Source: Mobilicoccus massiliensis (GTDB lineage Bacteria; Actinomycetota; Actinomycetes; Actinomycetales; Dermatophilaceae). From it: a stretch of 64,000 nt of DNA. The DNA is taken from positions 62,001 through 126,000 of the forward strand of contig NZ_LN651327.1 in assembly GCF_000826525.2 (NCBI RefSeq). Direction: 5' to 3'. The notes beneath the pieces are model-generated. The model searched no databases and was not told the origin of the DNA. It saw only the letters and a program-made list of their open reading frames with translations. Every line of letters starts with the position of its first letter. The stretch's first letter is position 1. Shown here piece after piece: positions 31,297-39,167 of the stretch. Both the position numbers and the translations under genes were made by a program.

Positions 31297-32058
31297 ATGG
31301 TCAGCAGGAACACGCTCGTCACGGCCGCTGCGGCGCTCGTGAGTACCGGATCCCTCGCGTTCGCGGGAGCCACCCTCGCCTCGGCCGACACCTCGACGGG
31401 AGAGTCGAGCACCGCGACCGCCACGGCCGCCCAGCAGGACGGCCGTGAGTGCGGACCCGGCGGTCACGCCCACACCCAGGTCACCGGCGCAGAGGCGACC
31501 AAGGTCACCCAGGCCGTGACGAAGAAGGACTCGGCCGTCACCGTCGAGAGGGTGATGAAGGACGCCGACGGCTCCTACGACGTCATGGGCACGAAATCGG
31601 GCGAGCGGGTCATGGTCGAGGTGAGCAAGGATCTCGCCACGATCGAGGTCCGTGAGGGTGTCGGCCCGGGAGGACATGGAGGGCGCGAGGGGCGTGGCGG
31701 GCACGGCCCGATGAACCTCACGGAGGTCACGGGGGCCGAGAAGACGAAGGTCGTCGCCGCGCTCCAGGCGAAGGACTCGACCTTCACCCCCGAGGACGTG
31801 CGCAAGGACGACCAGGGCACCTACCTCGTCATGGGCGCCAAGGGCGGCGAGCGGGCGATGGCGCGGGTCAGCGCCGACCTGAAGACGATCGAGGTGCACA
31901 CCGGCCGGCCGGATGGCCCGCGAGGCGACTCGGGCGCCGCACCGAACGCTCCGGCCACGGTTCCCTCGACCGGCACGAGTCCGACCGACGTGCCGAGCAC
32001 GAACTCGACGACGAGCACGACGTCGAACTCGGCCGCCGATACGACCCGGGCCGCCTGA
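31297..32058 (+). CDS. Secreted protein with two PepSY-like repeats
   Basis: 253 residues. A signal peptide (1-31, cleavage near LASADT), then two copies of a ~62-residue unit (about 58-119 and 138-199). Each starts T-x-VTGAE-x-TKV and continues to DGSYDVMGTKSGERVMVEV in copy 1 or QGTYLVMGAKGGERAMARV in copy 2. A Gly/His-rich linker (GPGGHGGREGRGGHG) joins them and may bind metal. The C-terminal 55 residues are Ser/Thr/Pro-rich. The unit looks like PepSY, found in peptidase inhibitors and extracellular sensors. It ends 22 bases before the 21-C tract. Confidence 0.75.
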   Translation: MVSRNTLVTAAAALVSTGSLAFAGATLASADTSTGESSTATATAAQQDGRECGPGGHAHTQVTGAEATKVTQAVTKKDSAVTVERVMKDADGSYDVMGTKSGERVMVEVSKDLATIEVREGVGPGGHGGREGRGGHGPMNLTEVTGAEKTKVVAALQAKDSTFTPEDVRKDDQGTYLVMGAKGGERAMARVSADLKTIEVHTGRPDGPRGDSGAAPNAPATVPSTGTSPTDVPSTNSTTSTTSNSAADTTRAA

Positions 32059-32080
32059 ACGCCCGGCCGGGTGCGATCCA

Positions 32081-32101
32081 CCCCCCCCCCCCCCCCCCCC
32101 C
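32081..32101 (+). repeat. Homopolymer of 21 C
   Basis: An uninterrupted run of 21 cytosines, 23 bases past the PepSY-gene stop and about 44 bases upstream of the predicted -35 of marR. Such runs slip during replication. It could tune marR expression, or it could be a sequencing or assembly length error. Confidence 0.95.
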
Positions 32102-32144
32102 GCCTTCCACGCGTACGCCCGTCCTGGGCTTGTGTCCCAGTCGG

Positions 32145-32173
32145 GTGACTAGATGACGCATCACTGTCATACT
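32145..32173 (+). promoter_or_regulatory. marR promoter with overlapping inverted repeat
   Basis: GTGACT (32145-32150), a 17-base spacer and CATACT (32168-32173), 6 bases before the ATG at 32180, point to a leaderless transcript. ATGAC-N8-GTCAT (32153-32170) overlaps the spacer and -10; MarR proteins commonly repress their own gene through such a site. Confidence 0.6.
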
Positions 32174-32179
32174 GGGTCA

Positions 32180-32653
32180 ATGACCGAATCGCCATGGCTG
32201 GACGAGCCCAGCCAACACGTCTGGCGCCGTTGGCTTCACGTCACGAGCCGTCTGCCGGGGGCGATCAGCGCGCAGCTGCAGGCCGACTCCAACCTGTCGT
32301 CGGCCGATTTCTCCGTCCTCGTCCAGCTCAGCGAGGCCCCCGGCGAGCGTTACCGCATCGCCGAGCTCGCCGACACGTTGCAGTGGGAGCGCAGCAGGCT
32401 CTCTCACCAGCTCACCCGCATGCAGAAGCGTGGGCTCGTGCGTCGCGAGGAGTGCGAGCACGACGGCCGCGGAGCCTTCGCGGTGCTCACCGACGAGGGT
32501 CGTGAGCGCATCACGCAGGCGGCCCCCGGGCACGCCCGGCTCATTCACTGCCTCTTCTTCGAGGACCTCCCGGCCGAGGAGCTCGAGGCACTCGACCGCA
32601 TCCTCACCAGGCTCGCCACGCGTATCGACGAGGCCGCGCCCTCCGGGGCCTGA
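32180..32653 (+). CDS. MarR-family transcriptional regulator
   Basis: 157 residues. The winged helix (about 30-110) has SADFSVLVQLSEAPG, IAELADTLQWERSRLSHQLTRMQKRGLVRRE and the wing DGRGAFAVLTDEGRERI. ATG 32180 is placed by the promoter 6 bases before it; the in-frame ATG at 32153 would start inside the promoter and operator. MarR proteins respond to phenolic or oxidative signals. The likely target is its own gene; the convergent lipoprotein operon ends 16 bases downstream. Confidence 0.9.
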   Translation: MTESPWLDEPSQHVWRRWLHVTSRLPGAISAQLQADSNLSSADFSVLVQLSEAPGERYRIAELADTLQWERSRLSHQLTRMQKRGLVRREECEHDGRGAFAVLTDEGRERITQAAPGHARLIHCLFFEDLPAEELEALDRILTRLATRIDEAAPSGA

Positions 32654-32669
32654 GCGTCGGCCGGTCTCG

Positions 32670-33404
32670 TCAGGGGCTCGGTGGTGCGAGCCGATCCGGG
32701 TCTTGCGGCGGGTCCTGGCGGCGCACCGTGTCCTGCGGCGGTGTCGGCAGCCCGCCGAGGTCGAGGGAGGAGTCGGCGAACTTGTCCTCGAGAAACCGGC
32801 CCTGGGCGTTGAGACGCGCGACGTCACCGGCGTACACGGCGGTCGCGATCTCGCCGAGCTCCCGCTCGAGCAGCGCCAACTGACTCAGCAGTTCCTCGTG
32901 GGCGGTGCGCTGGTTGTCGCCACGGTGACCGAGGGCGAAGCTGCGCGGCAGGTTGGCGTAGGTCTCCAGCGATGTCGGCAGGTAGTCGTTGATCGTGCGG
33001 CCGACGACGAACAGGTGGTCGGGGGAGGTGGCGAGTTCCTCCGCGCGAGCGAGGATCTCGCGCAGGCTCGCCTCGACGCGGTCGTACGCGGCGAGCACGT
33101 CGTCGGGCAGCCGCCGCTCGTGCCTGCGGACTCGCTCGCCGAGACGGTCGAGGTCGGCGCGCAGATTCTCGGCCCTGGCGAGCGCCGCGGTGTACCCGGA
33201 GTCGACGAGCTGCACCTTGTCGCGCGGGGTGACCAGCGCCGCGATGCCGTACACCCCACCGACGACGACGGGCCACAACGGCCCCGCCACGCCCGTCGGC
33301 ACGGTGGCCCCGAGGGCGGCGAGGCCCGCGACGGAGCCGACGATGTTCCGGTTGGACCCGAGGTAGGCGCCGGCACGCTGCCACCACGGCCTACTGGTAG
33401 CCAC
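32670..33404 (-). CDS. XpaC-like helical membrane protein of unknown function
   Basis: 244 residues. Two adjoining membrane segments (about 20-57: GSVAGLAALGATVPTGV, LWPVVVGGVYGIAALV) and then a long helical region (70-220) rich in Arg/Glu/Leu, with NDYLPTSLETYANLPRSF. This fits the XpaC/5-bromo-4-chloroindolyl-phosphate-hydrolysis family, which is encoded beside TelA-type toxic-anion proteins; the match is tentative. The GTG start has AAGGAG upstream and overlaps the end of the VWA gene by 14 bases, making it the last gene of a three-gene operon. The C-terminus is Pro-rich. Confidence 0.7.
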   Translation of the reverse strand: MATSRPWWQRAGAYLGSNRNIVGSVAGLAALGATVPTGVAGPLWPVVVGGVYGIAALVTPRDKVQLVDSGYTAALARAENLRADLDRLGERVRRHERRLPDDVLAAYDRVEASLREILARAEELATSPDHLFVVGRTINDYLPTSLETYANLPRSFALGHRGDNQRTAHEELLSQLALLERELGEIATAVYAGDVARLNAQGRFLEDKFADSSLDLGGLPTPPQDTVRRQDPPQDPDRLAPPSP

Positions 33405-35064
33405 GGATCTCCTTGAACACCGAATCGAGCGACGACGTGCGGGCGTCGAACACCTTGCCGCCGGTGGTCTGCGCGATGGTCTGCATCTCGGAGTCGTCGG
33501 AGTCGCCGAACAGCACCGTGAACGTCGGCACGGCCCGCACCTGCTCGGGCAACGCGCGGTAGTCGTCGACGAACGACTCCAGCGAGCGTCCCTCGGTCTT
33601 CTCCCCGTCGGTCATGAGCACGATGCTCGTGAACGCCTCGGGGCGGGCGGCGACCTCCTGCTGGGCCTGGGCGTAGGCGGTCGCCAGGCTGTCGTAGATG
33701 GCGGTGCCGCCGTTCGCGGCGAGCTCGTCGACCGAGGTGTTGATCTGGTCGAGGACGGGGCGCGGGTCGCCCTTGGGGACCTCGTACTGTTGCGCGGGCT
33801 GCGGCGTGCCGCTGAACGGGATGATCGTCACCCGTTCGCGGTTGCGGAACCGTGTGAACCCCTCGGCCTTGGTGACGTCCTTGCCCGAGAGCGTGGCGAA
33901 CGCCTGTTTGAGCTGTTGGAGGCGGTCTCCCGACATCGAACCGGAGGTGTCGATGACGTAGATCGTCTGGCTCGGGCGGGCCGCCTCGTCGAGGTAGGCC
34001 GTGATGAGCCCGTCGGCCGCGGCGCGCTGGGCGGGGAAGGGGAGCTCGACGAGCATCGTCTGCCCGAACTCGCCCGAGAGCGGCACCCCGGGCACGACGG
34101 GGCGGCGGTGAGTGCGCTCCATGATGAGCTTCTGTGCCTCAGGGGTGCGGAGCCAGTCGGCGAGTTTGGTGTAGGAGTCCCGTTTCTCGGGGGAGGCGCT
34201 CGCGAGTAGCGAGAGCGGGTAGTCGGCCGAGACGACGCCGTCGGAGGGGTACACGAGCGTGATGCCACCGGGCACCTCGTTGCGCGCCTTGAGGTCGAGC
34301 AGTACCGACTCGTAGTTGATGATCCCGTCCACGCCGGCGGAGGCGCCGTTCTTCACCTGTTCGACCCACCGGTCGGCGAGCCAGCCGGAGGAACCCGAGG
34401 TGAGTTTCTGCCCGGAGAAGAAGCTCGTGAGCTGTGGCGTCACCGTCTTGACCTGCGCGGGGTCGATGGCGTTGCCGCTGCCGGCCAGAGCCGTGGCGAC
34501 GCCGACGAGCGCGGAGAACCCACTGTTGCTCGACGCGGGGTTGGTCATGCCGTAGGTGAACCGGCCGGCCTTCGCCGCCGCGCCGATCTGCGCCCAGGTG
34601 GGTGCCTTGGTGTCCCATCCCAGCTTCTTCGCGCTCTCGGTGCGCAGGCCGAGGACGACGGGTGAGGCCATGACCTTGGTCGACGTGGTCAGGGCCTGGT
34701 TGCCCTTGGGGAGTAGCCCCAGGTAACGGTTGGAGGAGAACCACGTCGCGTCGTAGGACCCCCCGGCCGAGCCGTTCGCGACCTGTTCCGCGCCCTCGAG
34801 GGTGCCGGTGTAACCGAACGTCACCGCGATGCCCGTGGCCTTGCGGGCCTCCTCGAGCACCGGCTCCATGTCCCGCACCTCCGAGCCGGCGAGGACCCGC
34901 AGGGTGGTCGGGGCGTTGGGATCGGGCCCGCCTTCGCTCGTGCCGTCGTTGCCGCCCGTACATCCGGCGAGCAGGAGGACGAGGGCGATCGACGCGGCGA
35001 GGATTCCGTGGAGGCGTCGACGGGCGATCCCACTCGGGACGTTCGCGACGGTCGTGGTGGTCAT
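33391..35064 (-). CDS. Lipoprotein: substrate-binding domain fused to von Willebrand A domain
   Basis: 557 residues. The signal peptide has lipobox LLAGC (Cys35). Residues 50-350 form a type II periplasmic-binding domain (SBP_bac_11-like: LRVLAGSEVRDMEPVLEEA, YDATWFSSNRYL, GMTNPASSNSGFSAL, INYESVLLD). Residues 365-557 form a VWA domain with a complete metal site: DTSGSMS, the Thr of NGGTAIYD and the Asp of LMTDGEKTEG. It would sit outside the membrane and bind a ligand and a protein partner through Mg2+. There are no ABC permease genes, so this is not an ordinary uptake system. It follows the other binding protein by 11 bases. Confidence 0.85.
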   Translation of the reverse strand: MTTTTVANVPSGIARRRLHGILAASIALVLLLAGCTGGNDGTSEGGPDPNAPTTLRVLAGSEVRDMEPVLEEARKATGIAVTFGYTGTLEGAEQVANGSAGGSYDATWFSSNRYLGLLPKGNQALTTSTKVMASPVVLGLRTESAKKLGWDTKAPTWAQIGAAAKAGRFTYGMTNPASSNSGFSALVGVATALAGSGNAIDPAQVKTVTPQLTSFFSGQKLTSGSSGWLADRWVEQVKNGASAGVDGIINYESVLLDLKARNEVPGGITLVYPSDGVVSADYPLSLLASASPEKRDSYTKLADWLRTPEAQKLIMERTHRRPVVPGVPLSGEFGQTMLVELPFPAQRAAADGLITAYLDEAARPSQTIYVIDTSGSMSGDRLQQLKQAFATLSGKDVTKAEGFTRFRNRERVTIIPFSGTPQPAQQYEVPKGDPRPVLDQINTSVDELAANGGTAIYDSLATAYAQAQQEVAARPEAFTSIVLMTDGEKTEGRSLESFVDDYRALPEQVRAVPTFTVLFGDSDDSEMQTIAQTTGGKVFDARTSSLDSVFKEIRGYQ

Positions 35065-35075
35065 GCGAGTCCCCC

Positions 35076-36179
35076 TCAGCCGTAGAGCTTCTCGATGCCG
35101 ACGATGAGTTGTTCGAGCACCTCGAACGTCGGCGGTTCGACGACGTCGACGAGATCCGGCGGCGGAGTGATGCCGGCCTCGGTGACGGCCTGCGTGAACA
35201 CCTGGCGCTGGTTCGGGCGGAAGCCGTGTTGTGCGGCGAGGCGCACGAGCGTGGGATCGGTCCCGAGCAGCTCACCGAGCCGGCTGCCGCCGTCCTTGAA
35301 CGCGACGAGGGTGTGCTTGCTGAGGACGTCGGGTGTCGGGTACATGAGCACCATGTCGCCGGTGATCGATCCGTCCTTGCTCATCTGCCGGCCGAGGAAC
35401 TGCGACTCGTAGATCATCACCATCGGCGTCTTGCCCATGCCGGCGGCGAGGTAGTCCTCGAACGGCCCTTCACTCGACCCGCCGACGTAGCCCTGGTCGA
35501 GGAACAGCGGCGCGAGTTTGGGGACGACCGTCTGCACCTGCTTGGTGTCGGAGACGACGTTGCCGCCGTTGGCGACGTAGCTGGTCAGTGAGAGGTACAT
35601 CGCCGCGGAGTTCGAGCGGCGCACGTCGGTGGTGGTGACGAGCACGTTCTTGCGCGCCTTGTACGCCGTGTTGCCCGGGAGTTGATCCCAGCGGGTCTTC
35701 TTGGCGGCGAGCGCGTAGTACTTGTCCATGTCGAACATCCAGTGCTCGCCGCTCTTCGTGGCGATGCCCTGCTTGGCGAGGACGTCGACGATGGGCCGGT
35801 AGGTCGCGATGGCGAGCGGGGAGAAGAACGGGGCGTACACCCCGGCCGCTTTGCCCGTGCGTCGGATGCGGTCGGCGGCGGGCGCCGACGAGGGAAAGGC
35901 GAAGTCGTACCGCGCGAGGTCGGGCAGGTTCGCGATGTCGCGGGAGCCGACGGGCGTGACCTGCACCTGGAGGCCGTGGGCGGCCAGGGCGTCCTTGACT
36001 CGCTGGTCGCGGAAGAACGGCTCCTTCTCCGAGCCCACCACACCGGTGAGCGTCGTCAGCTGTTCCCCCTGGGTGGCACCGTCGTCGCCCCCTCGGCCCA
36101 GCCTGCCGCCCCAGACGATCGCACCCACGACCGCGACTGCGAGCAGGAGCACCAGCGCGATCCCGACGCCCTTTTTCAT
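35076..36179 (-). CDS. Membrane-anchored substrate-binding-like protein
   Basis: 367 residues from ATG 36179, chosen for AAGGGGGG upstream; the in-frame extension to 36230 starts before it. One N-terminal membrane anchor (about 5-25) is followed by a periplasmic-binding-type domain: LTTLTGVVGSEKEPFF, YDFAFPSSAPAADRI, MYLSLTSYVANGGNVV, MVMIYESQFLGRQ and VLMYPTPDVLSKHTLVAF. The strings GGSSEGPFEDYLAAGMGKTPMV and the end region parallel the binding half of the neighbouring VWA lipoprotein, so the two are paralogous. First gene of the three-gene operon; ligand unknown. Confidence 0.8.
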   Translation of the reverse strand: MKKGVGIALVLLLAVAVVGAIVWGGRLGRGGDDGATQGEQLTTLTGVVGSEKEPFFRDQRVKDALAAHGLQVQVTPVGSRDIANLPDLARYDFAFPSSAPAADRIRRTGKAAGVYAPFFSPLAIATYRPIVDVLAKQGIATKSGEHWMFDMDKYYALAAKKTRWDQLPGNTAYKARKNVLVTTTDVRRSNSAAMYLSLTSYVANGGNVVSDTKQVQTVVPKLAPLFLDQGYVGGSSEGPFEDYLAAGMGKTPMVMIYESQFLGRQMSKDGSITGDMVLMYPTPDVLSKHTLVAFKDGGSRLGELLGTDPTLVRLAAQHGFRPNQRQVFTQAVTEAGITPPPDLVDVVEPPTFEVLEQLIVGIEKLYG

Positions 36180-36397
36180 CCACGCCCCCCTTGGTCGAGT
36201 GGGGTCAGGATATGTCCGCCATTCGGCCACCGGGGGCGATCTCAGGTGAACGTTCGGCGACGATGCAGCAGGTCAGGGGCCGGATCGAGGCGGCTCTGGT
36301 CGCCCCACCCCTCGAAAGGACCGGCGTCGGCGATGGCCTCCGATGCGCCCGCCCGAGGCGTGCCCGTCCACGGCGACCGTCCCGTACAGTCCATCGC

Positions 36398-36763
36398 GTG
36401 GTGAGATTCCAGAATCCGGTCCTCGGCGTCGACGACCTCGACCGGGCCATCGCGTTCTGGAGTGCGTTCCTCGACTACCGCCCGATCGACGCCGGCCGAA
36501 CGGCGCGCTGGTGCACCCTCGTCCCTGCCGACGGTGACGGCCTACGCGTCGGCCTCATGCACAGCACGACCCCTGCCCGGGATCGACCGCGCGTCCATCT
36601 CGACTTCGCGGTCGACTCCGCGGAAGCGCAGGAGGACGCCGCGCGCCGTGCCTGCGAGCTCGGCGGCGAACGCGTCGACTGGCCCGATTACCCCGACGAC
36701 GCCGACTTCGTCGTCCTCGCCGACACCGAGGGCAACCGATTCTGCGTCGTCCGGCCACGCTGA
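36398..36763 (+). CDS. VOC family (glyoxalase-fold) protein
   Basis: 121 residues, a single VOC module of two beta-alpha-beta-beta-beta halves: FQNPVLGVDDLDRAIAFWSAFL in the first and VHLDFAVDSAEAQEDAARRACELGG with FVVLADTEGNRFCVV in the second. The Glu of DTEGN is the usual metal-ligand position. Relatives include glyoxalases, antibiotic-binding proteins and dioxygenases; no specific substrate can be inferred. TACAGT (36385-36390) lies 7 bases before the first of two adjacent GTG codons, supporting a leaderless start at 36398. Confidence 0.85.
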   Translation: MVRFQNPVLGVDDLDRAIAFWSAFLDYRPIDAGRTARWCTLVPADGDGLRVGLMHSTTPARDRPRVHLDFAVDSAEAQEDAARRACELGGERVDWPDYPDDADFVVLADTEGNRFCVVRPR

Positions 36764-36819
36764 CCGCGTTCCCCCGGCCGCTCGTTGATCCGGACCACGT
36801 CCCGCCCCTTCATCGTGCG

Positions 36820-36883
36820 CTCGCCGACGTCGTTGGGTCGCGAGCCCGGGGCAGGTCTTGACCGGCGGTGACAGGTCGGCGAG
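36820..36883. terminator. Long-loop inverted repeat between convergent genes
   Basis: CTCGCCGAC (36820-36828) and its perfect complement (36875-36883) are separated by 46 bases in the 144-base spacer between the converging VOC and DinB genes. The loop is long, so the terminator role is weakly supported. Confidence 0.3.
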
Positions 36884-36907
36884 ACGGGCCCGCGTCGATC
36901 GTGCAGC

Positions 36908-37456
36908 TCAGTGCGTCCGCAGCAGCATTCCCTTGACGTAGGCGGCCTGGCCGATGTGGGCGGTGATGTCGTTGAGCACGGAGACCAGGCGGGCGGCCGC
37001 CGTGACCGGCGGGTCGAAGTTCTCGTCGACGACGCGGGTGTAGTCCTCGGCCTTCAACCGCCCGAGGACCTCGAGGGTGAGTTCGTGGACCCCCTCGTGG
37101 TACTTGGTGAGCTGAGCCGGGGACTTGACGGTGAAGGCGCCGACCTGCTCGCTGGTCTGCCCGTAACCGATGTCGTCGGGGTCGTAGGGCAGGTCGAACT
37201 GGTCGCGCCACCGGCTCCACACCTGATCACAGGGGTCGCCGAGGGCCCCTGCGAGCCCGGCCATGTGGTCGTCCTGCACCCGCGTGAGGTGCCAGAGCAG
37301 CCAGCCGACGGAGTTCGCGTCGGCGTCCGGCCGCCAGCACAGCTCCGCGACCGACAACCGCTCGACGACCTGCGGAAACTCCTCGTGGACGCGCTCGAAC
37401 CCGTCGACGAGCAGATCGTGGGCGAGCGTGGCGGGCTGGGTGTCGTCGGTAGCCAT
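36908..37456 (-). CDS. DinB-like/mycothiol transferase family protein (DUF664 type)
   Basis: 182 residues, a four-helix DinB bundle. The three metal-binding His are plausible in WLLWHLTRVQDDH and NDITAHIGQAAYVKG. WRPDADANSVGWLLWH is the family's entry motif. In actinobacteria such proteins are thiol-dependent S-transferases using mycothiol; the substrate is unknown. The in-frame extension beyond ATG 37456 looks non-coding. A second, more distant relative (TIGR03086) is at 41834-42403. Confidence 0.85.
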   Translation of the reverse strand: MATDDTQPATLAHDLLVDGFERVHEEFPQVVERLSVAELCWRPDADANSVGWLLWHLTRVQDDHMAGLAGALGDPCDQVWSRWRDQFDLPYDPDDIGYGQTSEQVGAFTVKSPAQLTKYHEGVHELTLEVLGRLKAEDYTRVVDENFDPPVTAAARLVSVLNDITAHIGQAAYVKGMLLRTH

Positions 37457-37775
37457 GGCGCCAGTCTCGACGCTCGCGACGATCCTCACCACCCGGACGG
37501 CGCGGACACGCTCGTGCCGACCTCGAAGACGTTCCGCGCAGGGCCGCGGGAGGTCGAGTTCGCATGCCGTCCCCTGGCCGAACTGAACACCAGCGAGCCC
37601 CGCCGAGGACGCGGCCTGCATTTGTGAACCTCACAAGGCTCAACGCCTCCTGCGCACCGTCAGTGATGCCGCCGCCTTAGCGTGGAGGAGACACGACGTC
37701 CCGGTCGCACCCGGCCCACGAGGCCGCACGATGGTGCACCGCGTGCCTCGTCCTCCGAGCAGGAATGAGCAAGTC
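37457..37775. other. Divergent promoter region
   Basis: 319 bases between the DinB gene (leftward) and the unknown three-domain gene (rightward). It contains an inverted repeat TTGTGA-ACC-TCACAA at 37622-37636, a possible operator of unknown binding protein, and no coding pattern that I can support. Confidence 0.5.
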
Positions 37776-39167
37776 ATGCCGTTGGAGCTGTATGTGGGCC
37801 CGCTGCCGCAGCCTGGGCAGTCGGTCTATGACGCCTACGCGAGCCATGACGACCCTCGCCCCGCGGACGATTCGGCCACGTCCGTGATGCGGGCCTTCGT
37901 TGAAGAGGTCCGCGAACGTGTGGGCCTCGACGATCGCCTGTGGCTCGACTCCCACGATGCGCTGGAGAACGCCGTCGCCCAAGGCAACGCGTACCTCTCC
38001 ATTCGCGCGGATGAGAATCTTGCGGAGCGGATCCACACGGTAGTGCGGGAGGTCTCGGCCGACCTTCAGCTGATGGTGTACGACCCGCTCGGGATGGTGG
38101 CGTGGCTGCCCAGGCACGACTCACCGGTCGATGGGCAGCCACCGTCTGAGGGGCCGTACGGCCCGTTCGACCAGATCGAGGTCTTCGTCTCGTCCGAACC
38201 CGCCGACGCGCGGCCCGCGTACGAGATCTATGACGAGTGGTGCCGGCGGAAGTGGTTGGACGGCGGGCCGGACGCCGAGCCCGACGAGCGCATCCTCGCC
38301 CTGGTCGACGCGATCCGCGACCGCCTCGGAGTCCCCGACGAGTCCTACACCGCCGAACAGACGTCGCTGCTCTCCTACGTCCACGGCACCGCGCTTTATC
38401 TACGGCTGCACGACACCGGGGGGCTACGGCGCTGGGAGACGATCTTCACCGTCGTCCGCCGACAGGCCCAGGCCCTGGGGTTGCTCTATTACGATCCGAT
38501 CCGGCACATCGCCGTCCTGCCGGGCCGGCCCGAGGCCGTACCGTGTGAGCGACCCGAGCCGGACCCCGCGACGTTCGAGCCCATGCCCGAGCCTCTGACC
38601 GCCGAGGAATGGCACCGCACGGGCAGCGCGTCGCTGATGGAGGACCTCGGCGATGTCGACCCCGCGCCGGGATGGCCGCACCACCTCGACGATTCCCCCG
38701 TGCTGGCGGTGCTGGACCAGATGAGCGCCGGTGGCCACGCCCCGCACATCGATCTGCGGCTGTGTGTGCGGGTCACCGACGGCGCCACCGGCGCACCCGT
38801 CCAGGCCAGGATCGACGCCTGGCGGTGCCGCCCGGACGGCACGTTCGACGAACGCACCGACGCGCCGTGGGAGATGGAGAATCGCGGTTGGACTCGGGTC
38901 GACCAGGACGGGGTCTGGAGGCTGATCACCTGGCTGAATCGCCCCGGAGCAGACCCCGACCTCGACGACGCACGCACCTGGATCCACATCGGAGTACGAG
39001 CGCCCGATCACCACAGCGAATACCGACGCGTGCTGCTGCTCGACCCGCGGGCACCCATCCACGTCGACCTGGAGGCGCCCGATGTCCTGCCCACCCTGTC
39101 CGAAGACTCGACGCAGACCATCGACATCGGCCTGCGACGAGTTGAACGCACGGAACAGGGCCGGTGA
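37776..39167 (+). CDS. Unknown protein: duplicated alpha/beta domain plus intradiol-dioxygenase-like C-terminal fold
   Basis: 463 residues, no signal or membrane segment. Residues 3-112 and 133-250 are diverged copies of one domain: ELYVGPLPQPGQSVYDAY with FVEEVRERVGLDDR, and EVFVSSEPADARPAYEIYDE with LVDAIRDRLGVPDES. Both end in a YDP strand (LMVYDPLGMVAWLP; LLYYDPIRHIAVLPG). Residues about 320-445 resemble the transthyretin-like fold of intradiol dioxygenases: LRLCVRVTDGATGAPVQARI, DAWRCRPDGTF, GWTRVDQDGVWRL and TWIHIGVRAPDHHSEY. Of the two Tyr and two His that bind iron in those enzymes only one His is evident, so catalysis is unlikely. ATG 37776 was preferred to 37731. Single gene. Confidence 0.75.
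   Translation: MPLELYVGPLPQPGQSVYDAYASHDDPRPADDSATSVMRAFVEEVRERVGLDDRLWLDSHDALENAVAQGNAYLSIRADENLAERIHTVVREVSADLQLMVYDPLGMVAWLPRHDSPVDGQPPSEGPYGPFDQIEVFVSSEPADARPAYEIYDEWCRRKWLDGGPDAEPDERILALVDAIRDRLGVPDESYTAEQTSLLSYVHGTALYLRLHDTGGLRRWETIFTVVRRQAQALGLLYYDPIRHIAVLPGRPEAVPCERPEPDPATFEPMPEPLTAEEWHRTGSASLMEDLGDVDPAPGWPHHLDDSPVLAVLDQMSAGGHAPHIDLRLCVRVTDGATGAPVQARIDAWRCRPDGTFDERTDAPWEMENRGWTRVDQDGVWRLITWLNRPGADPDLDDARTWIHIGVRAPDHHSEYRRVLLLDPRAPIHVDLEAPDVLPTLSEDSTQTIDIGLRRVERTEQGR

Follow-up and report, generated by a model that had tools for sequence, protein, structure and literature searches.

A three-gene operon of Mobilicoccus massiliensis as a putative telA-less variant of TelA-XpaC-type systems, with two binding proteins and a VWA domain

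In a 64,000-nucleotide (nt) stretch of the Mobilicoccus massiliensis genome (contig NZ_LN651327.1, positions 62,001 to 126,000; hereafter the window) three tightly packed genes on the minus strand encode, in this order, a solute-binding-fold protein (SBP-A), a lipoprotein in which a second such domain is fused to a VWA domain (SBP-VWA) and a predicted helical membrane protein which we call the XpaC-slot protein or protein 3 (Table 1). Gene order and homology mark the operon, at the level of sequence, as a variant TelA-XpaC-type system without telA, and what is new here is a system of this type which has an extracytoplasmic front end of binding and VWA domains and whose own telA is missing. We favour the view, which in our judgement is evenly balanced between right and wrong, that the operon represents the extracytoplasmic and membrane half of an envelope-stress system of this type and is coupled in trans to a resident TelA module. 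The layout as a three-gene operon, claimed by an original prediction made from the sequence of the window alone, was borne out by the open reading frames (ORFs). That prediction had also seen no TelA partner, which is true within the operon, where no telA was found, but not beyond it: one telA is present on another contig of the genome, and the gene is present at most related loci.

TelA and XpaC proteins are tied to tellurite, lantibiotic, and envelope stress, and their mode of action is unsettled. TelA-XpaC pairs are placed within envelope-stress regulons (PMC3498285, PMC3139573), with xpaC-yaaN of Bacillus subtilis in the sigma-W regulon (PMC3498285), and disruption of a TelA/YaaN-like gene in Listeria is reported to reduce nisin and tellurite tolerance (PMC12791056, citing Collins 2010). 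Like the loci of the relatives studied here, the Firmicutes pairs (B. subtilis xpaC-yaaN; L. monocytogenes lmo1966-lmo1967) consist of a TelA family protein (PF05816) beside an XpaC-slot protein; these pairs are linked to envelope stress. They differ in that they are described there without binding proteins or a VWA domain, whereas the window is without telA and its protein 3 is missed by the XpaC model. The NCBI product name "Substrate-binding and VWA domain-containing protein", used for several plasmid homologues, denotes the same architecture as SBP-VWA and is a name without an assigned function. No description of a link between SBP-VWA and TelA plus XpaC-slot proteins was found in the titles and abstract openings of the literature searched.

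telA and gene order across SBP-VWA loci

The link to telA emerged from a scan of 84,980 species, each represented by a single genome. Of 207 relatives the best 80 were kept, and ten more loci, one of them the window, brought the set to 90 SBP-VWA loci. Distant relatives are under-sampled in this set, which contains one duplicate record (L032/L099) and, for a few genomes, two loci each. As gene calling had put some high-GC genes in the wrong frame, counts are from hidden Markov model searches of six-frame ORFs, with telA scored within 6 kb; the SBP-A and SBP-VWA profiles cross-match, and each protein was labelled by the better score. SBP-A was present at 88 of the 90 loci, the XpaC-slot gene at 78, and telA at 67. 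By far the commonest order (52/90) was SBP-A, telA, SBP-VWA, XpaC-slot, and the short gap between SBP-A and SBP-VWA in the window is the very site where these relatives carry telA. The order SBP-A, SBP-VWA, XpaC-slot, telA was found at 11 loci and the order SBP-VWA, XpaC-slot, SBP-A, telA at four. The trio without telA is present at nine loci, window included, SBP-A and SBP-VWA only at 12 (a contig end truncates one of these), and SBP-VWA with the XpaC-slot gene at two, both at contig edges; among loci at contig edges, L089 and L119 are without the SBP-A side and L102 is without the downstream side. A neighbourhood survey for constant partners had been proposed by the original prediction; here it showed TelA to be a usual partner, which contradicts the TelA-free picture of that prediction, the window being a telA-less form.

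Plasmids of Variovorax and Sphaerotilus carry a RefSeq "toxic anion resistance protein" in the telA slot, and all four genes were recovered by profile from these plasmids and from Nonomuraea gerenzanensis; in a Deinococcus plasmid stretch the profile search found the trio and no telA. On a Variovorax plasmid (L149:1-13467) the telA operon with all four genes has flotillin/OB-fold genes on one side and the Wadjet defence genes jetA/jetB on the other. A quick tree built from 85 SBP-VWA rows shows at least 8 changes between presence and absence of telA; 26 of its 81 inner branches are weak, and the branch of the window is not placed with support.

Conservation extends to the junction of the SBP-VWA and XpaC-slot genes. 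At 53 of the 78 loci with both genes, the window included, a start codon stands at exactly the same overlap, which suggests that translation of the two genes is coupled and that the coupling is conserved. In a well-supported SBP-VWA clade (L033, L110, and L117, likely also L109, L113, L114, and L118) the XpaC-slot gene is replaced by that of a different membrane protein with a single helix, and in L033, L110, and L117 an ORF of that single-helix kind begins at the same 14-nt overlap.

Two paralogous binding proteins and an intact metal site

The type II solute-binding fold was assigned to SBP-VWA by Pfam and structure and to SBP-A, which has no Pfam match of its own, by paralogy. Comparison of the SBP-A family profile (58 sequences) with that of SBP-VWA (63 sequences) gave an alignment over 300 columns with an hhalign probability of 98.8 (E 4e-17), falling mostly on the binding domain of SBP-VWA, and the two binding domains are therefore paralogues, as had been predicted. 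A strong N-terminal hydrophobic helix is present in SBP-A and in 82 of 88 homologues, the lipobox pattern was matched by none of the 88, and none was found in the window SBP-A; the protein is predicted to be held in the membrane by this single N-terminal helix.

SBP-VWA matches the Pfam models SBP_bac_11 (E 6.9e-13) and VWA (E 1.5e-14), with the type II binding-protein domain at about residues 50-363 and the VWA domain at about residues 365-557. The DxSxS...T...D metal site is complete, and its metal ion-dependent adhesion site (MIDAS) residues D372, S374, S376, T454, and D486 are invariant in all 63 aligned sequences, window included, as is the lipobox residue Cys35. The claim of a fusion with an intact metal site therefore stands, no loss of conservation of that site having been seen. 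Within the first 60 residues the lipobox pattern was found in 82 of 89 homologues, the starts of which had been picked partly by lipobox.

The AlphaFold2 model of SBP-VWA has a mean pLDDT (predicted local distance difference test) of 91.2. VIA-align of residues ~50-363 placed two sulfate binders, one of them 1sbp (Z 26.7), and a thiamine binder in a tie at the top (1sbp, 2qry, and 5um2; Z 26.7, 26.6, and 26.6), followed by sugar-phosphate binders (Z 25) and ferric-ion binders (Z 23), while Foldseek ranked ferric-ion binders first. Searches of the sequences of solved structures gave matches to SBP-VWA in the VWA region only; for SBP-A they gave one match at E 0.5, and a profile search gave none at 0.1. 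Residues S61, N180, S226, and E252, which are located at or beside predicted helix starts, are kept in 57, 59, 63, and 62 of the 63 sequences, which in the model agrees with a functional pocket. That the ligand might be an oxyanion is a guess from the fold and the TelA context.

The binding-protein fold, best matched by structures of proteins that bind sulfate, thiamine, and iron, and the conservation of the helix-start residues would both suit a pair of orphan binding proteins which feed a transporter encoded elsewhere, and in Olsenella (L032, the same record as L099; L032:12410-15085) an NMT1-type ABC importer, composed of ATPase, binding protein, and permease, does lie directly upstream of SBP-A on the same strand. 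Across the set, however, an ABC-ATPase-like family was found at 16 of the 90 loci with no fixed place (at most three loci per position), and a Pfam scan of the eight neighbouring ORFs in the 30-42 kb region of the window detected neither an ABC permease nor an ABC ATPase, in agreement with the original prediction. SBP-VWA also differs from the sulfate, thiamine, and ferric-ion binding proteins by its C-terminal VWA domain, by having no transporter alongside and by a sequence identity of 11-14% to 1sbp, 2qry, and 5um2. To our knowledge a VWA fusion and TelA or XpaC-slot partners are foreign to importers. We consider uptake to be very improbable, and the preference of the original prediction for extracytoplasmic sensing or assembly is supported, as ABC transporters do not accompany all orthologues and the metal site of the VWA domain shows no variation.

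The Ter proteins TerF and TerY are cytoplasmic. The VWA domain of the window is on a lipoprotein and fused to a binding domain, and so is predicted to lie outside the membrane; in this it differs from Ter systems, which it resembles in having a VWA protein and TelA in the same network (PMC7824862). The proposal made there, that TelA and the VWA protein TerF build sub-membrane structures which exclude phages or xenobiotics (PMC7824862), could be extended to the operon, which would then form a Ter/TelA-type membrane barrier in defence against phages, in line with one plasmid homologue near Wadjet jetA/jetB and with the position of the operon in a small extra segment (see below). Against this, the PADLOC matches were unconvincing (at best TerY at E 0.0022 for SBP-VWA and ZacC at E 0.0093 for protein 3, with no match to SBP-A), and of five plasmid regions viewed four were annotated, with a defence neighbour in one of these. 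A defence role appears unlikely to us.

The third protein and the resident telA module

Protein 3 is composed of a hydrophobic N-terminus, a helical domain, and a proline-rich C-terminal tail. It is predicted to be helical, with N-terminal hydrophobic helices of which the second has a peak of 1.82 and the first is weaker. By the positive-inside rule the charge flanking a membrane helix predicts its cytoplasmic side, and the charges beside these helices suggest a membrane hairpin with both ends in the cytoplasm. The helical membrane part of what had been described as a helical XpaC-like membrane protein thus fits, but the XpaC part is a positional and remote label only. The Pfam XpaC model PF10112 matches neither protein 3 nor, in a search of the whole genome, any other protein; it reaches 4 of 50 aligned members of the protein-3 family at E<=0.01 (best 1.3e-7). 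Comparison of the protein-3 profile with XpaC gave an hhalign probability of 25.8 (E 7.3e-4), and of four held-out XpaC proteins three scored E 4.4e-5, 9e-4, and 0.028 and one gave no match, the best unrelated ORF scoring 0.078. Strict membership of XpaC is not claimed on these scores. Foldseek with the protein-3 model returned nothing under E 0.37, leaving the fold uninformative.

Homologues of protein 3 were found in 30 of 58 genomes (M. massiliensis included). Each of these 30 has at least one homologue within 1 kb of telA, and the same distance holds for 32 of the 41 matches in total. Five of the 35 telA genomes were without a protein-3-type neighbour in that search, and for three of these five (G012, G046, and G054) later searches found a homologue or a PF10112 protein beside telA. 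With a hydrophobic segment defined as a mean of at least 1.6 over 17 residues, 64 of the 77 homologues linked to SBP-VWA have one, as do 18 of 20 from a second set, but only 1 of 31 homologues linked to an AAA+ gene and 6 of 40 linked to neither AAA+ nor SBP-VWA. The concentration of the segment in SBP-VWA-linked forms, together with the homologues beside telA, indicates that protein 3 is a membrane version of a TelA-side helper.

The genome contains a single telA, on contig C21 and away from the operon. It is directly followed there by a protein-3 paralogue that lacks a strong hydrophobic segment and then by an AAA+ ATPase with the domains AAA and AAA_lid_6, presumably of the CbxX/SpoVK type. 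This combination of telA, soluble XpaC-slot paralogue, and AAA+ is a recurring module (e.g., L038:4281-8036), with AAA+ at 33 of the 95 telA loci read. Protein 3 ends in RLAPPSP and the C21 paralogue in PLAPPSP. In the 3.84 Mb assembly (21 contigs) the pattern L-A-P-P-x-P-stop has two matches only, which are the ends of these two paralogues, and the reversed control has none. Both tails use the codons GCA and CCA, which are rare in this genome (across 42 called genes GCA makes up 4.3% of the Ala codons and CCA 3.4% of the Pro codons); this hints at a common DNA origin, perhaps through copying of DNA from the resident gene.

The distribution of the tail was followed by counting the motif [RPSTK]LxPP in the last 25 residues at the C-termini of homologues from 95 telA loci, five of which have no homologue. 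In M. massiliensis and its near relatives the motif is present in 17 of 21 homologues with an adjacent AAA+ gene and in none of 10 without one. A class draw of 57 telA places plus G025 excluded fragments, genomes already read and the streptomycete family f21, in which telA is in SBP-VWA operons where seen; the motif was absent there from all 26 homologues with neither AAA+ nor SBP-VWA and from all 18 with SBP-VWA, as it was from five further loci of genomes with a telA-less locus. Pooling gives 17 of 31 with AAA+ versus 0 of 59 without. The LxPP-AAA+ link is a feature of the wider lineage of the window and not of all telA loci, and the simplest explanation of the co-occurrence would be that the AAA+ ATPase, or a partner of it, docks at the tail. 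Among the 77 other SBP-VWA-linked homologues a similar tail is found in L105 only, and the nearest of them by identity, from Streptosporangiaceae, end short of the tail.

In the coupling in trans which we favour, two paralogous binding domains would be displayed outside the cell, one helix-anchored and one lipid-anchored with a metal-dependent VWA adhesion domain, and would take a small ligand, possibly an oxyanion, as well as a protein or wall partner. Protein 3 would cross the membrane as a hairpin and place its helical domain in the cytoplasm, where its relatives meet TelA. The inside partner would most likely be the C21 module of TelA, soluble paralogue, and AAA+, reached via the tail common to both paralogues, perhaps in a single complex that would act as a sensor of ligand and metal or as a scaffold, and the role would be resistance to toxic or membrane-active compounds. 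If this is true, the SBP-A and SBP-VWA pair constitutes an extracytoplasmic input to TelA/XpaC, and the common tail yields the concrete prediction that protein 3 binds the telA-side module in trans.

Several observations weigh against such coupling. Among 16 genomes with an SBP-VWA locus lacking telA, ten have telA nowhere (the completeness of the assemblies not being reported) and six have it elsewhere, which in G461 and G463 means in another SBP-VWA operon; for the eight genomes with the same trio and no telA at its locus, telA is elsewhere in four and nowhere in four. TelA is thus not obligatory for the trio. With respect to the tail, the motif is absent from all ten AAA-linked homologues of the class draw and from 14 of 31 overall, the Fisher p of 2.8e-10 was computed on the two sets pooled and takes no account of kinship, and less than 1 kb of flank is available at six of the 59 loci scored as "no AAA+". 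The telA-less, proteobacterial L105 has the tail LLPP, and no AAA+ was found beside the telA of its genome. These genomes without any telA, the Deinococcus plasmid stretch, and the greater constancy of SBP-A and the XpaC-slot gene than of telA across the 90 loci could all be accommodated by a self-sufficient trio that does not need TelA and might, for instance, be a scaffold for the assembly of cell wall or lipoproteins, in which case the tail would reflect ancestry or turnover. The association of protein-3 homologues with telA in every one of the 30 genomes with a match and the uniqueness, within the genome, of the tail match to a telA-side paralogue speak against it, and we regard a self-sufficient trio as possible but on the less likely side.

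A more specific form of coupling to the resident module can be proposed tentatively, although we doubt that it is correct in full. LxPP would be a lineage-local code for AAA+ docking, and a telA-less SBP-VWA sensor, gained with the segment described below, would have taken up the tail and thereby joined the resident TelA-AAA machine as its ligand- and metal-sensing front end.

The extra segment and its surroundings

A search of 3 genomes from the same genus and 32 from the same family found no close homologue of SBP-VWA, the only match being partial and VWA-like, in one genome. In the same-genus genome G002 the window flanks 31690-32663 and 36883-37426 lie next to each other with an overlap of 21 nt; between them the window has an extra ~4.2 kb, in which the operon is accompanied by a glyoxalase-fold gene. 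Acquisition of the segment by transfer seems likelier than repeated loss.

Table 1. Coordinates of the operon and associated features in the window.
Feature	Position	Strand	Basis
SBP-A, solute-binding-fold protein, 367 aa	35076..36179	-	ORF; paralogy to the binding domain of SBP-VWA; N-terminal hydrophobic peak 3.04
SBP-VWA lipoprotein, 557 aa	33391..35064	-	Pfam, alignment, AlphaFold2 model, fold matches
XpaC-slot protein (protein 3), 244 aa	32670..33404	-	ORF; hydrophobicity; homology to telA-side proteins
14-nt overlap of SBP-VWA and XpaC-slot genes	33391..33404	-	Start codon at same overlap in relatives
LAPPSP tail codons and stop, XpaC-slot gene	32670..32690	-	Same tail in the paralogue beside telA (other contig)
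11-nt gap between SBP-A and SBP-VWA; telA slot in 52/90 loci	35065..35075	-	Locus comparison
Segment absent from same site in G002, ~4.2 kb	32664..36882		Flank matches; limits approximate

The start of SBP-A was taken as the ATG at 36179; the listed ORF opens earlier, with GTG at 36230. The window has no tRNA and no Rfam match at gathering score, and the 478-aa ORF at 37731-39167 (+) has no Pfam match. The GC content of the operon region, in 2-kb steps, is 68.7-70.4% and does not depart from that of its surroundings. The glyoxalase-fold gene is located at 36401-36763 on the plus strand, inside the same extra segment as the operon.

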